Positions 54,522 to 62,384 of a DNA stretch of 64,000 bases are shown here, in pieces. How positions within the stretch are numbered: the stretch's first letter is position 1; each line of letters opens with the position of its first letter. The notes under the pieces are model-generated. The model was not told the DNA's origin. It ran no database searches and saw only the letters and a list, made by a program, of their open reading frames with translations. The DNA is from Phascolarctobacterium sp. (lineage in GTDB: Bacteria > Bacillota > Negativicutes > Acidaminococcales > Acidaminococcaceae), in assembly GCA_030531205.1 (NCBI GenBank), contig JAUNOC010000001.1, forward strand, positions 62,001 to 126,000, in the 5' to 3' direction. Position numbers and translations under genes: made by a program.

Positions 54522-55079
54522 CTATCTCCTATGATGGTGATGATGTGGTGGTCCATAATGATGGTGATGATGCCACGGCCAGCCCCAAATATCAATCACT
54601 ACCGGCGGTGTAGGCGGATAATATGTACCATGCACAATAACCTCTTTAGGTCTTTCCACCTTCATTACCCAAAGCCGGAAAACTTCCCTGCCGTCAATAT
54701 ATTTTCCGCCTTCTTTGCCCGTCATTATCCTGTAACCATTAAAATTATAATCCCGTCCGGAATAATAACTGAACCGGGATGCTAATTTTTTATAAATCTT
54801 TTTATCATTGGTGTAAATGTAGGTCATCTGATCCTCATCCATGTTCAAAGCAATCTGTTTTGCCAAGGACGGAATTTTTTCCGTATCCACATAGGCAGTT
54901 ACATCCTCGCTCTCCGCCTCCCGTACATACACCGTTTTTGTAGCCGCCTCCGTCAGTTGCGCTTTCATTTCTGTTGCCGTAATCTCGGCATTCGGCTCCA
55001 ACTCAGCATCTGTCCACTCCGCCCAACAAGGCACAGCTAACAGCAATGCCCCAAAAACTAATGCCAAAATTTTTTTCAT
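54522..55079 (-). CDS. Exported protein with a histidine-rich C-terminus
   Basis: 185 residues from the ATG at 55079 (the frame opens earlier at 55115). Signal peptide 1-20 ending CWA. The middle is an alpha/beta region without a known motif. The last 30 residues contain Pro/Trp/Gly and two runs of five His, the second followed by RR. The His runs would bind Ni, Zn or Cu and could form a periplasmic or cell-wall metal store. Not recognised. Confidence 0.62.
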   Translation of the reverse strand: MKKILALVFGALLLAVPCWAEWTDAELEPNAEITATEMKAQLTEAATKTVYVREAESEDVTAYVDTEKIPSLAKQIALNMDEDQMTYIYTNDKKIYKKLASRFSYYSGRDYNFNGYRIMTGKEGGKYIDGREVFRLWVMKVERPKEVIVHGTYYPPTPPVVIDIWGWPWHHHHHYGPPHHHHHRR

Positions 55080-55169
55080 ACCTAATACCACCTTTCCACA
55101 GCAAAGTATTAACAAAAACTCTTTGCCGTAAAAGGAATTTTACATAAAATTTATGACGAAACTATGACA

Positions 55170-55459: not shown

Positions 55460-57043
55460 TTATTCTTTCTTCTTAACCATTCCCAAATCATCTGCCGCTA
55501 AGATCAGGGTGTTCAAACTGCTGGTAACATTTACGCCCGTAAGTGTCATATCTATAATAACATCCACAGCAATATAAATTGCCAAACAATATTCCGGCAA
55601 CAATGCTTGTGCCATTAAAATTGCCATTACAGAAATAGCACCACCAGGAATATGGGGGGCTGCAATAGCAATAATATAACAAGCCAAAGCAATAACAATT
55701 AATCTCGGAACAGGGATGGCTATGCCGCAAACCTCACTAAATCCCATAAGAATTCCCAAAAAACCAATTACAGTCCCTGTGTTAACCAAAATTTGAGAAA
55801 TAGGCAAACTAAAATTCAAAAGTTTTTTGTCCACCCCTAAACTGGTACATAATTTATCTAATAATGGAATACATGCAGCAGAACTGGATGTAGAAACCGC
55901 CAATAGTGTGAGAGGTATCGCTAATTTAAAATAATTTTTTATGCCAAACTTAAAACGCCATCCCGTATAAAGTGTTTCCAAGACAATATAGCAAATTCCT
56001 GCCAATACAAATACTAATAAGGGTTTCCATACCTTCAGAACATAAACAAGATTCCCGCTCAAAATAACATTTGTAAAAGAAAGATACACAATGAAAGGAA
56101 TACTTTTACAAAAATAAGTAACCGCTGTCATAAAAACAGTACTAAGCTCATTAACAAAAGCAATAACACCTTTTGCCTGTTGGTCTAAAATCAAAAGAAT
56201 AATACCTGTTGTTACTGCCAAAAAGATAATTTGCAAAGTATTACCATCAACAAATGGCTGAAGCAGACTGCCAGGCACAATACCCACTAACATTTGAAAA
56301 ATAGTTTTTAGTACGGACAAGTCCATACCGCCGCCAAACTCTACAACTCCAAATGCTACCGTGTAAATTACCACACCAAATATTAGTGCAACAAAATTGC
56401 GTTTTAAAATAGCACCAAGAACCCGCATACCCATATTGCTCAAAGTAGCAATATTACCTACATTGCAAATACCACTAAGCACACCAAAGAAAATCATAAA
56501 GGTAGCCAGCCCCCCCAGCAAACTCAACATCATTTTGAATAATGGCTGGATAATTTCTGTGGCAACTATTTTAGCAATATCTGTCCCAGCTAAATTTATA
56601 GCATAACCTGTAAGAAACGCCAGCAAAATACTGATCGCAATTTTACCTACACCGCCAATGTTGACCATAGGTAATTTGATATCGACTATATTATTACCGG
56701 CACGATATTTGTATGTAGTAGCCAACCCAACATTTGTCATAACGCTATTAAAATAATTCATAGCTTCATTGGCCAACGCATCATCCCCATTATTCTCTAG
56801 TGGGTTAATTTGTTGCCCCTCAAATGACAAACATACATAGGGTCTAAAAAAACGTTTGCCTGTTTCCAACACTACTTCTGTATTGGCAGGTGCTTTTTCC
56901 AACCAAGCCAAAAGTAATGTTTCCACAGTCAAACGCCCTTTAATAATCCCCATGGAAGAAATTTTAAGTTTTTTCATATATGACGCTATTTCATCAGAAA
57001 TAGCGTCAATATTTTCAGATGATAAAAGATATGTTTTTTTCAT
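55460..57043 (-). CDS. GHKL-like domain fused to an SLC1/DAACS transporter, paralog 1
   Basis: 527 residues. Residues 1-126 are a soluble domain that aligns with the GHKL domains of the two neighbour proteins: Glu41 (ETLLL) at the N-box position, SFEGQQINPL (73-82) against DSGKPFDP, and YKYRAGNNIVDI (111-122) against YKYEHGQNIVTV. The N-box Asn and the glycine-rich lid are lost, so ATP binding is doubtful. Residues about 130-520 are a DAACS glutamate-transporter-like domain with SSS near 386-388, PGGAISVM and DMTLTGVNVT (498-507). Compared with GltPh, the acidic-side-chain Arg is Leu501 and the Na+-site Asn/Asp residues are Val420, Thr422 and Ser509. Starts 4 bp after paralog 2. Confidence 0.72.
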   Translation of the reverse strand: MKKTYLLSSENIDAISDEIASYMKKLKISSMGIIKGRLTVETLLLAWLEKAPANTEVVLETGKRFFRPYVCLSFEGQQINPLENNGDDALANEAMNYFNSVMTNVGLATTYKYRAGNNIVDIKLPMVNIGGVGKIAISILLAFLTGYAINLAGTDIAKIVATEIIQPLFKMMLSLLGGLATFMIFFGVLSGICNVGNIATLSNMGMRVLGAILKRNFVALIFGVVIYTVAFGVVEFGGGMDLSVLKTIFQMLVGIVPGSLLQPFVDGNTLQIIFLAVTTGIILLILDQQAKGVIAFVNELSTVFMTAVTYFCKSIPFIVYLSFTNVILSGNLVYVLKVWKPLLVFVLAGICYIVLETLYTGWRFKFGIKNYFKLAIPLTLLAVSTSSSAACIPLLDKLCTSLGVDKKLLNFSLPISQILVNTGTVIGFLGILMGFSEVCGIAIPVPRLIVIALACYIIAIAAPHIPGGAISVMAILMAQALLPEYCLAIYIAVDVIIDMTLTGVNVTSSLNTLILAADDLGMVKKKE

Positions 57044-57047
57044 AGCA

Positions 57048-58631
57048 TCAGTTCTTTTTAGATATCATATTGAGTGCTGAAGCCGCACACACTAAATTAT
57101 TAACATTGCTGGCAATATTCACGCTTGTAAGTAACATATCCAAAAGAACATTGACAGCAATATAAATTGCCAGACAATATTCCGGCAACAGTGCCTGTGA
57201 CATCAAGATTGCCATTACAGAAATAGAACCGCCAGGAATTGGTGGTGCTGCAATAGAAATGATAAAATAAGTCACACCGCTGACAATTAATTTAGGAATG
57301 GAAATAGATACTCCACAAATTTCACTAAAGCCCATGATAACACCGGCAAAAGCAATTACCGTCCCTGTATTAGTCAAAATTTGGCAAATTGGTAAACCGA
57401 AATTCAAAAACTTTTTATCCAATCCCAAACCATTACAAGTTTTATCCAACAATGGAATACAAGCAGGAGCACTGCCCGTGGACAATGCTAAAATCGTAGC
57501 CGGCATAACATTTTTGAAATGAGCAGCAATGCCAAATCCTGATTTCCAACCTGTATACGCAGTATCTAAACCAATATAGATAACTGCAATAATGGCAATT
57601 ACCAGTAGCGGTTTCCACACCTTGATAACATAGCCCAAATTACCGCTCAACAACACGTTAGTAAAAGAAAGATAAACAATAACTGGTATGGTCGCACAAA
57701 AATAACTGATTGCCGTCATAAACAATGTATTGCATTCATTTACAAAAGCAATGACCCCTTTTACTTGTTGGTCCAAAATCAAAAGAATTATTCCAGCCAT
57801 TACTGCCAAAAAAATAATTTGTAAGGTGTTGCCTTCTATAAATGGTTTTACCAAACTTCCAGGTACCATACCAATAAACATTCGGAAAACCGTCTTTAGT
57901 ACTGATAAATCTACACCTCCGCCAAGTTCCACCACCCCAAAAGCGACAGCAGAAACCACCATGCCTAATACAAGTGCTATTAAATTACGCCCTAAAACCA
58001 AATTGAGAACCTTCAGTCCCATATTACTCAAAGTGGCAATATCACCCATGTTACAGACGCCACTAAGCACGCTGAAGAAAATCATAAAGGTAGCAATACC
58101 ACCTAATAAGTTAAGCATCATATCAAACAGGGGAGAGACAACTTCTGTAGAAACCACTTTTGAAAAATCTGCCCCGGCAAACCCCAAAAGATAACTGGTA
58201 ACAAATGCAAGCAGTACGCCAATTAAAATTTTACCCATACTGCCAATATTTACCATAGGCAATTTAATATCAATTATATTACTGCCGCTACGAAACTTAT
58301 AGGTGGTAGATAACCCCACATTGGTCATAACGCTATTGAAATAATTTAAAGCATCATTAGCCAAAGCATCATCAACACTGCTTTCTAACGGGTCAATCTT
58401 TTCTCCGTCAAATGACAATTGCACATAAGGACGGAAAAACCGTTTGCCCATACTCAAAGTAACTTCCGTATTGGCAGGCGCTTTTTCCAACCACGCCAAC
58501 AATAAGGTTTCGGCAGTTAGGCGTCCCCTAATAATTCCCATTTGGGGAATTTTTAATTGTTCCATGTAAGATGCTATTTCTTCAGAAATAACATCTATAT
58601 TTTCCGCTGTAAGTAAAAATTTTTTATTCAT
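57048..58631 (-). CDS. GHKL-like domain fused to an SLC1/DAACS transporter, paralog 2
   Basis: 527 residues, same plan and the same length as paralog 1, clearly from a tandem duplication. N-domain landmarks: ETLLLAWLEKAPANTEV (41-57), SFDGEKIDPL (73-82) and YKFRSGSNIIDI (111-122). The transporter part has STGSAPACIPLL at the hairpin-1 site, Thr420/Thr422 in the NMDGT position, and DMLLTSVNIA with Asn509 in place of the Na+ Asp. The start overlaps the STAS gene stop by 8 bp, so its synthesis is tied to the STAS protein. Substrate unknown; loss of the Arg points away from glutamate/aspartate. Confidence 0.72.
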   Translation of the reverse strand: MNKKFLLTAENIDVISEEIASYMEQLKIPQMGIIRGRLTAETLLLAWLEKAPANTEVTLSMGKRFFRPYVQLSFDGEKIDPLESSVDDALANDALNYFNSVMTNVGLSTTYKFRSGSNIIDIKLPMVNIGSMGKILIGVLLAFVTSYLLGFAGADFSKVVSTEVVSPLFDMMLNLLGGIATFMIFFSVLSGVCNMGDIATLSNMGLKVLNLVLGRNLIALVLGMVVSAVAFGVVELGGGVDLSVLKTVFRMFIGMVPGSLVKPFIEGNTLQIIFLAVMAGIILLILDQQVKGVIAFVNECNTLFMTAISYFCATIPVIVYLSFTNVLLSGNLGYVIKVWKPLLVIAIIAVIYIGLDTAYTGWKSGFGIAAHFKNVMPATILALSTGSAPACIPLLDKTCNGLGLDKKFLNFGLPICQILTNTGTVIAFAGVIMGFSEICGVSISIPKLIVSGVTYFIISIAAPPIPGGSISVMAILMSQALLPEYCLAIYIAVNVLLDMLLTSVNIASNVNNLVCAASALNMISKKN

Positions 58632-58941
58632 TCTTATCCTTCTTTATCTCAAAGAAAGAGTCAAAACCGCTGGTAGCCAAAACATCTACCACAAAATCGG
58701 TCAATGCACACAAATTAACATTAATGCCTGCAGATTTAGCAGTTTTAGCAATAATTAAAAGGGCCCTTAAACCCGCACTGGAAATATATTCCAGTTGGGA
58801 ACAGTCCAAAATCAAACGTTTTGGCTTGTCATTCATCACATCCGTGATAAGCTTTTGAAATTCCGGTGCAGTGGTGGTATCCACCCTGCCCTTTACTTCC
58901 GCAATCGTGCGGTCATTTTCTTTAGTCACAACTACATTCAT
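58624..58941 (-). CDS. STAS-domain anti-anti-sigma-type protein
   Basis: 105 residues, a single STAS domain. RLILDCSQLEYISSAGLRALLI contains the Ser54-Ser55 that is the phosphorylated site in SpoIIAA/RsbV-type antagonists. Normally phosphorylated by an RsbW-like kinase and reset by a SpoIIE/RsbU phosphatase, both of which are encoded here. No sigma factor gene is near. It lies 26 bp after the phosphatase gene and overlaps transporter 2. Confidence 0.87.
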   Translation of the reverse strand: MNVVVTKENDRTIAEVKGRVDTTTAPEFQKLITDVMNDKPKRLILDCSQLEYISSAGLRALLIIAKTAKSAGINVNLCALTDFVVDVLATSGFDSFFEIKKDKNE

Positions 58942-58967
58942 AATTCTTCCTCCTTACAAATTTTGTT

Positions 58968-60203
58968 TTATATTTTTTTGGTCACGGTCACAATATTTTG
59001 ACCATGCTCATATTTATAACTTAATGAATCTACCGTTCTCTTAATCATAACAATTCCCAACCCTTTTAAATCATCCGCTGTTAATTTATCTGCAGAAACT
59101 TCTTTAACAAATTTAGTTGGGTCAAAGGGTTTGCCACTATCCACCACACGAATGGAAACTACATCATCTGCTACATTCAACCCGATACTTGCTTTGCCAC
59201 CTGCTTTGCCATAAGCATACTTAATGATATTAGTAAACAACTCTTCAACAACCATGGCCATACGCATTTGCATATTTAAGGGCACGCCACGCTTGTTAAG
59301 TTGTTCTTCCACAAACAGCAGCACGGGCCGTAATTCATCATTTGTCGCCTGAAAATATCTCTCACAAAATTCTTCAGCAGATGCCTTTTCCTTATAATCA
59401 AGAACAACCATAGTAATATCATCAAACTGCTCTGCGCTGCCTACAAAAGCATCTATATCCGCTTTGGCACCATATAAAATTTTAGTCAAATCATGCTCTT
59501 CTTTACAAGTGTTCAAGTAATCTCTTATCCTGTCCTCTCCGTAAAGTTCTTTATTGGCATTAGTTGCCTCCGTAACACCATCCGTATAAAGAAACAACTT
59601 GGAGCCAGGTTCCATAGTAACTGCATTCTGGACATAGTTTACGTTATCAAACCCGGCCAAAACAAAGCATGGCTTACACTGCAAATATTCATACTGTCCG
59701 TTCCATTGTTTCAGCAACGGCGGATTATGCCCGGCATTGGCATAAGTCAAGGTTCCGGTTTCTAAACTTAAAACTGCCATCCAAACCGTAACAAACAAAT
59801 CTGCACTATTTCCATGACACAAATCACGATTAGTTTTGGAAAGTACATCCGCCGGCGAAAATCCCATCCGGGCGTAAGTTCTGATAAGCGTTTTGGCTAT
59901 TGCCATAAATAACGCTGCTGCAACACCCTTGCCTGATACATCGGCAATCACCATTACCAAATGTTTTTCATCAGTCAAAAAATAATCGTAAAAATCCCCG
60001 CCAACCTCTTTGGCCGGAGTCATTGTGGCAAATATATTAAAATCATGATGTTTGGGAAAAGCAGGAAAACGACGGGGCAACATATTTGCCTGAATATCCC
60101 TTGCTATAGAAAGTTCTGTTCCCAAACGCTGACGGTCTCCTGTGGAATCCGCCATCTTCTCAACGATTTTAGATGCTACTGCCTCTTTTTGCTTTAAATC
60201 CAT
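58968..60203 (-). CDS. SpoIIE/RsbU-type PP2C phosphatase fused to an RsbW-like GHKL domain
   Basis: 411 residues. Residues 30-275 form the PP2C-type phosphatase: Asp70 (KEVGGDFYDYF), Asp88 (VIADVSGKG), Asp208 (FLYTDGVTE) and FDDITM (260-265) are the metal Asp residues. Residues about 285-411 form a GHKL kinase domain with the N-box Asn325 (EELFTNIIKYAYG), D355 in DSGKPFDP and the GLGI motif. So both opposing activities are on one chain, which could act on the STAS protein. First gene of the operon; a divergent RsbW-like gene lies 114 bp away. Confidence 0.85.
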   Translation of the reverse strand: MDLKQKEAVASKIVEKMADSTGDRQRLGTELSIARDIQANMLPRRFPAFPKHHDFNIFATMTPAKEVGGDFYDYFLTDEKHLVMVIADVSGKGVAAALFMAIAKTLIRTYARMGFSPADVLSKTNRDLCHGNSADLFVTVWMAVLSLETGTLTYANAGHNPPLLKQWNGQYEYLQCKPCFVLAGFDNVNYVQNAVTMEPGSKLFLYTDGVTEATNANKELYGEDRIRDYLNTCKEEHDLTKILYGAKADIDAFVGSAEQFDDITMVVLDYKEKASAEEFCERYFQATNDELRPVLLFVEEQLNKRGVPLNMQMRMAMVVEELFTNIIKYAYGKAGGKASIGLNVADDVVSIRVVDSGKPFDPTKFVKEVSADKLTADDLKGLGIVMIKRTVDSLSYKYEHGQNIVTVTKKI

Positions 60204-60317
60204 TCTTAAAAAACACCTTCTTATAACAGAATAGTTAGAGTAATTATACTATTTTTTTTTATTAAATGCTATACTTTTTTTCAAATTTTTGTTACTATAT
60301 ATAGAAAGGAGGCTAAA

Positions 60318-60722
60318 ATGAAACTTGAAAAAAACTTTCCTGCCACTGATGCTGCATACCCGAAAGTAGCAGAATGGCTAGAAAATGAACTTAACAAAAT
60401 AAATTGCCCCCTCAAGATTATTATGCAAATAAGCATGTGTCTTGAAGAGGCCTTTATTAACATTGCCCACTATGCCTATGGAGAAAAAACGGGTGATATG
60501 ACCTTAGGTCTTGAACAAGAGAACGACATCGTAACTCTCCATCTCAAAGATAAAGGTAAACCATTTGATCCCCTAGCAAAACAAGACCCGGATGTTTCCA
60601 TGAAAATGGAAGACCGCAAAATCGGCGGGCTTGGTATTTATCTGATCAAGCAAATGATGGATGAAGTAAAATATGAACGGATTAACGAAGAAAATGTTTT
60701 AACCTTCTCCAAGAAAATATAA
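60318..60722 (+). CDS. Stand-alone RsbW-like GHKL serine kinase
   Basis: 134 residues of a complete RsbW/SpoIIAB-type domain: CLEEAFINIAHYAYG with Asn48, KDKGKPFDPL (77-86) and GGLGIYLIKQMMDEVKYE (103-120). GAAAGGAGG precedes the ATG. Anti-sigma kinases of this type bind either a sigma factor or a STAS protein. With the STAS gene and phosphatase transcribed from the opposite strand, it completes a partner-switching set. Confidence 0.86.
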   Translation: MKLEKNFPATDAAYPKVAEWLENELNKINCPLKIIMQISMCLEEAFINIAHYAYGEKTGDMTLGLEQENDIVTLHLKDKGKPFDPLAKQDPDVSMKMEDRKIGGLGIYLIKQMMDEVKYERINEENVLTFSKKI

Positions 60723-60755
60723 AAATAACCCCATGCATCGCATGGGGTTATTTTT
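60721..60755. terminator. Bidirectional intrinsic terminator
   Basis: 16-bp stem (AAAAATAACCCCATGC and complement) with an ATC loop, between the RsbW-like gene and the convergent cstA stop. Confidence 0.88.
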
Positions 60756-60758
60756 ATA

Positions 60759-62384
60759 TCAATTTTCTTTCTTCATATAGTCCTTAATTACTTGTACCAA
60801 ATTAATTTTACAGTGTACTAACCACATAAAATATGCCGTAAGTACAATAAACAAAGCAGAAACAGTGCGAATAAACCACAAATTATTATTAACCATTAAT
60901 AGGAACAATGCCGCCAAAGAAGTTGCCAGCATAAAAACTGTGGGATAAAAAACAAACTGAGTTCTCTTAAATTTATTCATAACTAGCCACAGAAACACTA
61001 CCAGCAATGTCATACCGGCCACTAATTGATTGATTGCCCCAAATGCCGGCCAGAACAATTCCCACATTCTTTTGCCATCGCTTTCCAAAATCATCAAACT
61101 GAGTGCCGCCAACAAAGTCAAAGATGTAGCCATAAAACTGGACAGACGATTATGAGTCAATTCCTGCAAAAGATATCGTCCTACACGGGCGATTGTATCA
61201 AGGGTTGTAAGTACAAAACAGTTGATTACCATAAACCCAAAGATATTGCCAAGATGATGCTCAATGCCAATATATTCCAACATTCTGCCAAATCCAACTG
61301 CAAAACAATTTAAGGGGGCATGTGCTATAAAGTCCCCGTTAAGCATAACTGTTCCCAAGGCAATAACCCCTACCACGCCCTCTAAAAGCATTGAACCATA
61401 ACCTACGTCCAAGGCCTGCTCTTTTTGGGCAAGTTGTTTGGGTGTAGTCCCGGAACTAATCATGGAATGGGCTCCGCTCACCGCTCCACAGGCGATAGTA
61501 ATGAAAAGCATGGGCCACAAATAACTGTTGCCGGAAATAGCATTCCACCCTCTGAAAGGCTCCAGCATATTGACTTGCACTTGTGTTCCTGTAACAAACA
61601 TTCCCGCAACCCCAAGAAAAATCCCGGCATACAAAAAGAAGGAGGCAATATAATCCCTTGGCTCCATCAAAAGCCAGAGCGGAAGCACACATGCCAAATA
61701 ACAATATCCGACTAACGCCACACGCCAGTAATTTAATGGCAAATCAAACATTCTAAAAACTTCGATGTTGTTTGCACCATAATACAAAGCATAGAAAAAG
61801 AACGGCATCAAAAATAAAGTGGCATAACGCAAACTGATGTGAAATACATAAACACCAATGCCTAGAATAAATGCCGCAATTACCGTTAAAACAACTGTAA
61901 AACCTACTTCCGGCGCTTCTGTAAAAGTTACTGCGGTAATATCTAAAAATGATGCTACTACCAACACCAAAAAAATCCATACAAACGCCAGAAAAAACAT
62001 CTGTACTTTTCGCCCAAGAATACGTTGCACAACTTCGGCAATAGAAAGCCCATCATATTTGAGGGATACTGCCAAGGCACTTAAATCATGCACACCGCCT
62101 ACAAAAATACACCCCAAAATCAGCCAAAGCAAGGCCGGCACCCAGCCAAACATCGCTCCGGCAACAACAGGCCCTACAATGGCTCCCGCTCCTGCAATGG
62201 AAGAAAAATGATGGGCAAAAAGTATGCTCAACGGGGATGGGAAATAATCCATATCGTCTCTTAAATATACGGAAGGCATCTCTTCTTCCTTATCAGACAA
62301 AAAATATTTGCTGAGCCAAGCCCCGTAATACTTATAAGCCACCAAAAAACAAACTATGGTAACTACAATAATAACTGACATCAT
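60759..62384 (-). CDS. cstA: Carbon starvation protein A family transporter
   Basis: 541 residues with about 15 hydrophobic segments. CstA pattern: PSPLSILFAHHFSSIAGAGAIVGPVVAGAMFGW near 50-82 and GAVSGAHSMISSGTTPKQL near 300-318. Relatives take up peptides or pyruvate under carbon limitation. Its ATG overlaps the stop of the upstream EAL-type gene by 4 bp, so both are made together. It converges with the RsbW-like gene. Confidence 0.9.
   Translation of the reverse strand: MMSVIIVVTIVCFLVAYKYYGAWLSKYFLSDKEEEMPSVYLRDDMDYFPSPLSILFAHHFSSIAGAGAIVGPVVAGAMFGWVPALLWLILGCIFVGGVHDLSALAVSLKYDGLSIAEVVQRILGRKVQMFFLAFVWIFLVLVVASFLDITAVTFTEAPEVGFTVVLTVIAAFILGIGVYVFHISLRYATLFLMPFFFYALYYGANNIEVFRMFDLPLNYWRVALVGYCYLACVLPLWLLMEPRDYIASFFLYAGIFLGVAGMFVTGTQVQVNMLEPFRGWNAISGNSYLWPMLFITIACGAVSGAHSMISSGTTPKQLAQKEQALDVGYGSMLLEGVVGVIALGTVMLNGDFIAHAPLNCFAVGFGRMLEYIGIEHHLGNIFGFMVINCFVLTTLDTIARVGRYLLQELTHNRLSSFMATSLTLLAALSLMILESDGKRMWELFWPAFGAINQLVAGMTLLVVFLWLVMNKFKRTQFVFYPTVFMLATSLAALFLLMVNNNLWFIRTVSALFIVLTAYFMWLVHCKINLVQVIKDYMKKEN

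Follow-up and report, generated by a model that had tools for sequence, protein, structure and literature searches.

The subject of this study is a locus in a 64,000-nucleotide stretch of the genome of a gut bacterium, a Phascolarctobacterium species (GenBank assembly GCA_030531205.1, contig JAUNOC010000001.1, positions 62,001 to 126,000; hereafter the window), where genes for a SpoIIE-type phosphatase and a STAS protein share an operon with two SLC1-family transporters that carry an additional N-terminal domain. The order given in the initial annotation (SpoIIE-GHKL, STAS and two SLC1 fusions, with a divergent RsbW-like gene) was recovered with all five open reading frames, and its spacings within the operon, 26, -8 and 4 bp, are exact (Table 1). 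Pfam finds SpoIIE and HATPase_c_2, STAS, HATPase_c_2 and SDF domains in these frames. A scan of the presumed promoter region for promoter consensus sequences gave nothing better than chance.

Table 1. Genes, domains and intergenic region of the locus, numbered by window position
Feature	Position	Strand	Remarks
SLC1-family transporter, second copy	55460..57043	-	527 amino acids; N-terminal pseudo-RsbW domain
Pseudo-RsbW domain of second copy	56663..57043	-	Residues 1-127
SLC1-family transporter, first copy	57048..58631	-	527 amino acids; N-terminal pseudo-RsbW domain
Pseudo-RsbW domain of first copy	58251..58631	-	Residues 1-127; AlphaFold2 pLDDT 87.3; best PDB matches UsfX, SpoIIAB, RsbW
STAS anti-sigma-antagonist-like protein	58624..58941	-	105 amino acids; Ser55 at RsbV phosphosite position
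SpoIIE/RsbU-type phosphatase with RsbW-type GHKL domain	58968..60203	-	411 amino acids; intact ATP motifs
Intergenic region separating two divergent units	60204..60317	.	Presumed promoter region
Divergent RsbW-like kinase	60318..60722	+	134 amino acids; intact N, G1 and G2 motifs

The textbook role of partner switches is to regulate sigma factors: RsbW-type kinases phosphorylate a STAS protein, SpoIIE-type phosphatases reverse the reaction, and the unphosphorylated STAS protein is the form that binds RsbW. The parts of such a switch are all present here, namely a STAS protein with a phosphorylatable serine, an RsbW protein with intact motifs and a SpoIIE phosphatase. In the alignment with RsbV, the STAS protein has its Ser55 at the position of RsbV Ser56. 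In RsbV, Ser56 is the phosphosite and is situated at the interface of the RsbV-RsbW structure (PMC7340262). The genome as a whole, which is 98.8% complete, has one STAS match and two HATPase_c_2 proteins above the cut-off. A search of it for a SigB/SigF-type sigma factor found none; because the only sigma factors found are RpoD and a SigH-like protein of 197 amino acids, no SigB/SigF-type target for the switch is visible.

Four fusion copies occur in this 1.33 Mb genome, two of them in the window and the others on contigs C4 and C11. A close relative is the metagenome-assembled Candidatus Phascolarctobacterium caballi, in which the first SLC1 fusion is 94% identical, and another relative (G040) has the window operon extended by a third fusion in tandem. 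On contig C11, the copy (L029:7745-9302) is split over two frames close to a stretch of 8 A bases; phase variation, a pseudogene or an error of sequencing may account for this. In genome G573, five SLC1 fusions stand in tandem (L113:6459-14443) among ten matches overall.

A degenerate RsbW-type domain on SLC1 transporters

The initial annotation had proposed that the N-terminal domain of both transporters is GHKL-like. Pfam and NCBIfam scans of residues 1-126 of each transporter as single sequences gave no match, so that homology can be reached via profile-profile and structure comparison only; a profile search of PDB sequences with the N-domain likewise found no relative. We gathered 62 SLC1-fused N-domains from related genomes, and when their profile was aligned by hhalign with one built from RsbW and SpoIIE-GHKL domains, the two matched over the whole length with a probability of 98.6% (E 6.7e-16), whereas column-shuffled and reversed control profiles stayed below 1%. 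Among the 62 domains taken one by one, HATPase_c_2 was by far the commonest family, matched by 10 with a best E of 1.4e-5.

The AlphaFold2 model of the window N-domain (pLDDT 87.3, pTM 0.82) shows a Bergerat fold in its RsbW/SpoIIAB form, an outcome in favour of the initial annotation, which had named the lack of this fold as a refutation. The top 13 chains returned by Foldseek were all UsfX, SpoIIAB or RsbW. Structural Z-scores ran from 14.0 to 11.8 for UsfX, RsbW, SpoIIAB and Rv1364c and were at most 9.6 for other proteins, SiaB reaching 9.6 and histidine kinases about 8. Because the top 13 chains, at 14.0-12.4, stand well above SiaB and the histidine kinases, the N-domain is, on its predicted structure, of this type, which is more specific than the GHKL fold at large.

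The N-domain is, by its sequence, no working GHKL ATPase. The three landmarks that had been cited for the GHKL proposal all stand in the alignment, except that the G1 aspartate of the DSGKPFDP landmark has no counterpart in the N-domain, where it faces Phe74. The G1 aspartate and the GLG motif are kept in 0/62 N-domains and the Mg-binding asparagine in 3/62, and the N-domain therefore lacks the Mg-ATP-binding residues by which an active RsbW serine kinase is recognised (the N-box Asn, the G1 Asp and the GLG motif). The real RsbW domains of the fusion loci keep all the ATP motifs that the transporter N-domains have lost. Other positions are strongly conserved: Glu41 and Asn118 are invariant (62/62), Pro81 is found in 59/62 and Gly76 in 56/62. 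Glu41 was considered as the catalytic glutamate of the N-box and rejected, since the alignment places it one residue earlier; the catalytic position itself is occupied by Glu in 46, Asp in 5 and Thr in 11 of the 62. In two ortholog pairs, the nonsynonymous substitution rate (dN) of the N-domain is 0.048 and 0.069 against synonymous rates (dS) of 0.65 and 0.63, with dN/dS of about 0.07-0.11, and purifying selection therefore acts on it. The N-domain is, as judged from its residues, a pseudo-ATPase, and because the catalytic residues are lost yet selection retains the domain, it most likely binds something.

The transporter part belongs to SLC1 over the length of the SDF domain (PF00375; E 8.2e-47 and 3.4e-44 in the two window proteins), and aspartate transporters in PDB match the transporter profile at E 1.8e-92. 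At the positions of GltPh Asp312, Arg397 and Asp405, the copy at 57048-58631 has Thr, Leu and Asn and the copy at 55460-57043 has Thr, Leu and Ser, so that neither has the substrate and sodium residues of a canonical acidic-amino-acid transporter. Most members of the family deviate at the NMDGT, Arg397 and Asp405 positions, and some (L094, L096) keep NMDGT-type and transmembrane helix 8 (TM8) residues. The idea that every fusion is a dead transporter was dropped, since some members retain canonical SLC1 motifs. A protein search of plasmids found ordinary SLC1 cores only.

Linkage to STAS genes and occurrence on other transporters

The linkage of fusions to partner-switching genes was surveyed in 36 genomes with 63 fusion clusters. 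Of the 63 clusters, 16 have a STAS gene no more than 2 kb away against 0.51 expected (Poisson P 7e-19, with the clusters of related genomes not independent), and a STAS match is present in all 36 genomes, in 35 of them above the curated cut-off. In the window's own family, a STAS protein over the cut-off occurs in 9 of the 10 fusion-bearing genomes versus 5 of the 47 others (Fisher P 2e-6, uncorrected for kinship), and in genus g9 it is present in the two genomes with a fusion and absent from the two without.

The arrangement of the genes varies. The order STAS-RsbW-fusion-SpoIIE is found at L168 and L170 and, with two fusions, at L169; L079 has STAS-fusion-SpoIIE, and L116, which is from a different family, has STAS-SpoIIE/RsbW-fusion. 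In genome G649, each of three SLC1 fusions has a separate STAS gene nearby. Serine occupies the phosphosite position in 20 of the 21 STAS partners shown, the stretch at L169 stopping short of the site. Co-occurrence of the fusion with STAS, SpoIIE and RsbW genes thus extends to other genera and families, an outcome in favour of the reading in the initial annotation. At L186 (280-1863), we also saw a single protein composed of a STAS domain, an APH-type kinase and an intact RsbW domain.

A degenerate domain of the same RsbW type is also carried at the C-terminus by ATPases of polar-amino-acid ABC (ATP-binding cassette) transporters and by MATE transporters. The ABC ATPase fusions include L032:11077-12177, L034:889-1995 and L081:12760-13920; the first adjoins a STAS gene with SpoIIE and RsbW further on, and the second adjoins a STAS gene with RsbW further on. 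L153 has a STAS gene, a MATE fusion and a SpoIIE gene, in that order. At L180 (151-1869), the RsbW domain fused to a MATE transporter retains its ATP motifs, and the fusion gene overlaps a SpoIIE gene. At L178 one chain unites an ABC permease, an ATPase and a pseudo-RsbW domain. In a tree of the domains, those of SLC1 proteins form one group (99/93) and those of ABC proteins another (98/92), with the MATE domains in two places; the tree is based on a short alignment of 132 columns, and its deep forks are uncertain. Because the domain sits at opposite ends of the SLC1 and the ABC or MATE proteins and takes separate places in the tree, the pattern reads as repeated uptake of the domain by transporters. 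The SLC1-type domain profile is matched by 99/380 genomes of the window's class and the ABC-type profile by 150/379, the latter profile also catching true RsbW proteins.

A possible partner switch with a transporter as output

We consider the locus to be, probably, a partner-switching module that acts on a transporter where other such modules act on a sigma factor, with the unphosphorylated STAS protein docking on the pseudo-RsbW domain. Its anatomy is well supported; STAS binding, dependence on phosphorylation and gating, the step already proposed in the initial annotation, are what we infer from it. In this mechanism, the STAS protein would be phosphorylated at Ser55 by the divergent RsbW-like protein, by the GHKL part of the SpoIIE protein or by both, and dephosphorylated by the SpoIIE phosphatase. 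The unphosphorylated STAS protein would then dock on the N-terminal pseudo-RsbW domain of both SLC1 transporters, and docking would set whether the transporter works. The N-termini of GltPh-type SLC1 proteins are cytoplasmic, so the STAS protein could reach the N-domain. The pseudo-RsbW domain should be unable to inactivate its own ligand, because its ATP-binding residues are lost.

Some observations weigh against this mechanism. A STAS gene is absent within 8 kb of 44 of the 63 fusion clusters, and the other fusion loci of the window genome, on contigs C4 and C11, are among these 44; the window SLC1 cores are without equivalents of Asp312, Arg397 and Asp405, so that transport is not assured.

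The divergence of the SLC1 cores at substrate and ion positions, seen in the window copies and most members, makes a role as transceptor possible. The SLC1 part would then mainly sense an amino acid, its ligand would alter how tightly the pseudo-RsbW domain holds either the kinase or the STAS protein, with free STAS reporting nutrient status to another target; CbrA is a known transceptor that joins a transporter to a kinase (PMC7096432, PMC13022988). We regard this as unlikely, since some members (L094, L096) keep NMDGT-type and TM8 residues, no SigB/SigF-type sigma factor to which STAS could report was found in the genome, and a like domain is carried by ABC ATPases that strongly match the ABC family, which suits output better than sensing. 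Still less probable is a docking of the kinase alone, in which the pseudo-RsbW domain would pair with a real RsbW through the alpha1/beta1 surface, tethering it to the membrane or inhibiting it, and would bind no STAS protein. The alpha1/beta1 elements do form the RsbW dimer surface (PMC7340262) and are spanned by the fold match; however, at L078, L082, L088, L093 and L162 a STAS gene adjoins the fusion and no RsbW gene was found in the stretch examined. The majority of fusion copies are not beside a STAS gene, as would be expected if the N-domain were an oligomerisation or folding add-on linked to the switch by shared transcription only, but we think this improbable in view of linkage in several families, MATE transporters in the same slot and co-occurrence of fusion and STAS within a family. 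Finally, although STAS, RsbW and SpoIIE are the usual control set of SigB and SigF, an ordinary sigma-factor switch that shares its operon with transporters by chance is very improbable, given the sigma factors of this genome and the RsbW-type domain on the transporters themselves.

Single features of the proposed switch have parallels among known systems. The Bacillus SigB and SigF switches (RsbV-RsbW-RsbU and SpoIIAA-SpoIIAB-SpoIIE) use the same three protein types, with the STAS phosphosite and kinase motifs kept here and the N-domain having the RsbW/SpoIIAB fold; they differ in that no SigB/SigF-type sigma factor was found in the window genome and the would-be output is a transporter with a degenerate RsbW domain. 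In the SiaABCD system of Pseudomonas aeruginosa, a phosphorylation switch is likewise directed at a target other than a sigma factor, its partner protein working on an enzyme without an intermediary (PMC8457831, PMC7647112), SiaC on the diguanylate cyclase SiaD (PMC8457831), whereas in the window the outputs would be transporters with a pseudo-RsbW domain. The STAS protein MlaB binds and regulates the ABC ATPase MlaF, a subunit of a transporter, with neither a kinase/phosphatase switch nor an RsbW-type domain mentioned in the abstract (PMC7367683). MlaB-MlaF and SiaC-SiaD are precedents for single steps of the proposed mechanism.

Two further systems tie related domains to transporters. The CbrA and CrbS proteins also place a transporter and a GHKL-type domain on one polypeptide (PMC7096432, PMC5715377), but these are SLC5 proteins with an active histidine kinase and a response regulator, in contrast to the SLC1, ABC and MATE proteins with a mostly degenerate RsbW-type domain and a STAS/SpoIIE module. 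In SulP/SLC26 transporters, a partner-switch domain is tied to the transporter as a C-terminal STAS domain (PMC8256260), whereas in the present case it is the RsbW side that is joined to the transporter, STAS being encoded on its own. A search of the open-access PMC literature found no description of the present architecture. Partner switching is already known; the replacement of the sigma factor by transporters would be new.

We lean, by a modest degree, towards a wider generalisation: that STAS phosphorylation directly controls SLC1 transporters, polar-amino-acid ABC importers and MATE transporters through separately recruited pseudo-RsbW domains, in the window's class and in some other families of the phylum, as an undescribed post-translational layer. 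If true, this would be a common form of control of nutrient uptake in anaerobic bacteria, and it would show a route to a new switch output, in which a binding domain is copied, loses its enzyme activity and is fused to the target.

Two further features were noted in the window. A 20-bp inverted repeat at window positions 60717-60759, where the rsbW-like gene and cstA converge, is terminator-like on both strands, and positions 54522-55115 encode a small protein whose C-terminal tail is rich in His (HHHHHYGPPHHHHHRR).

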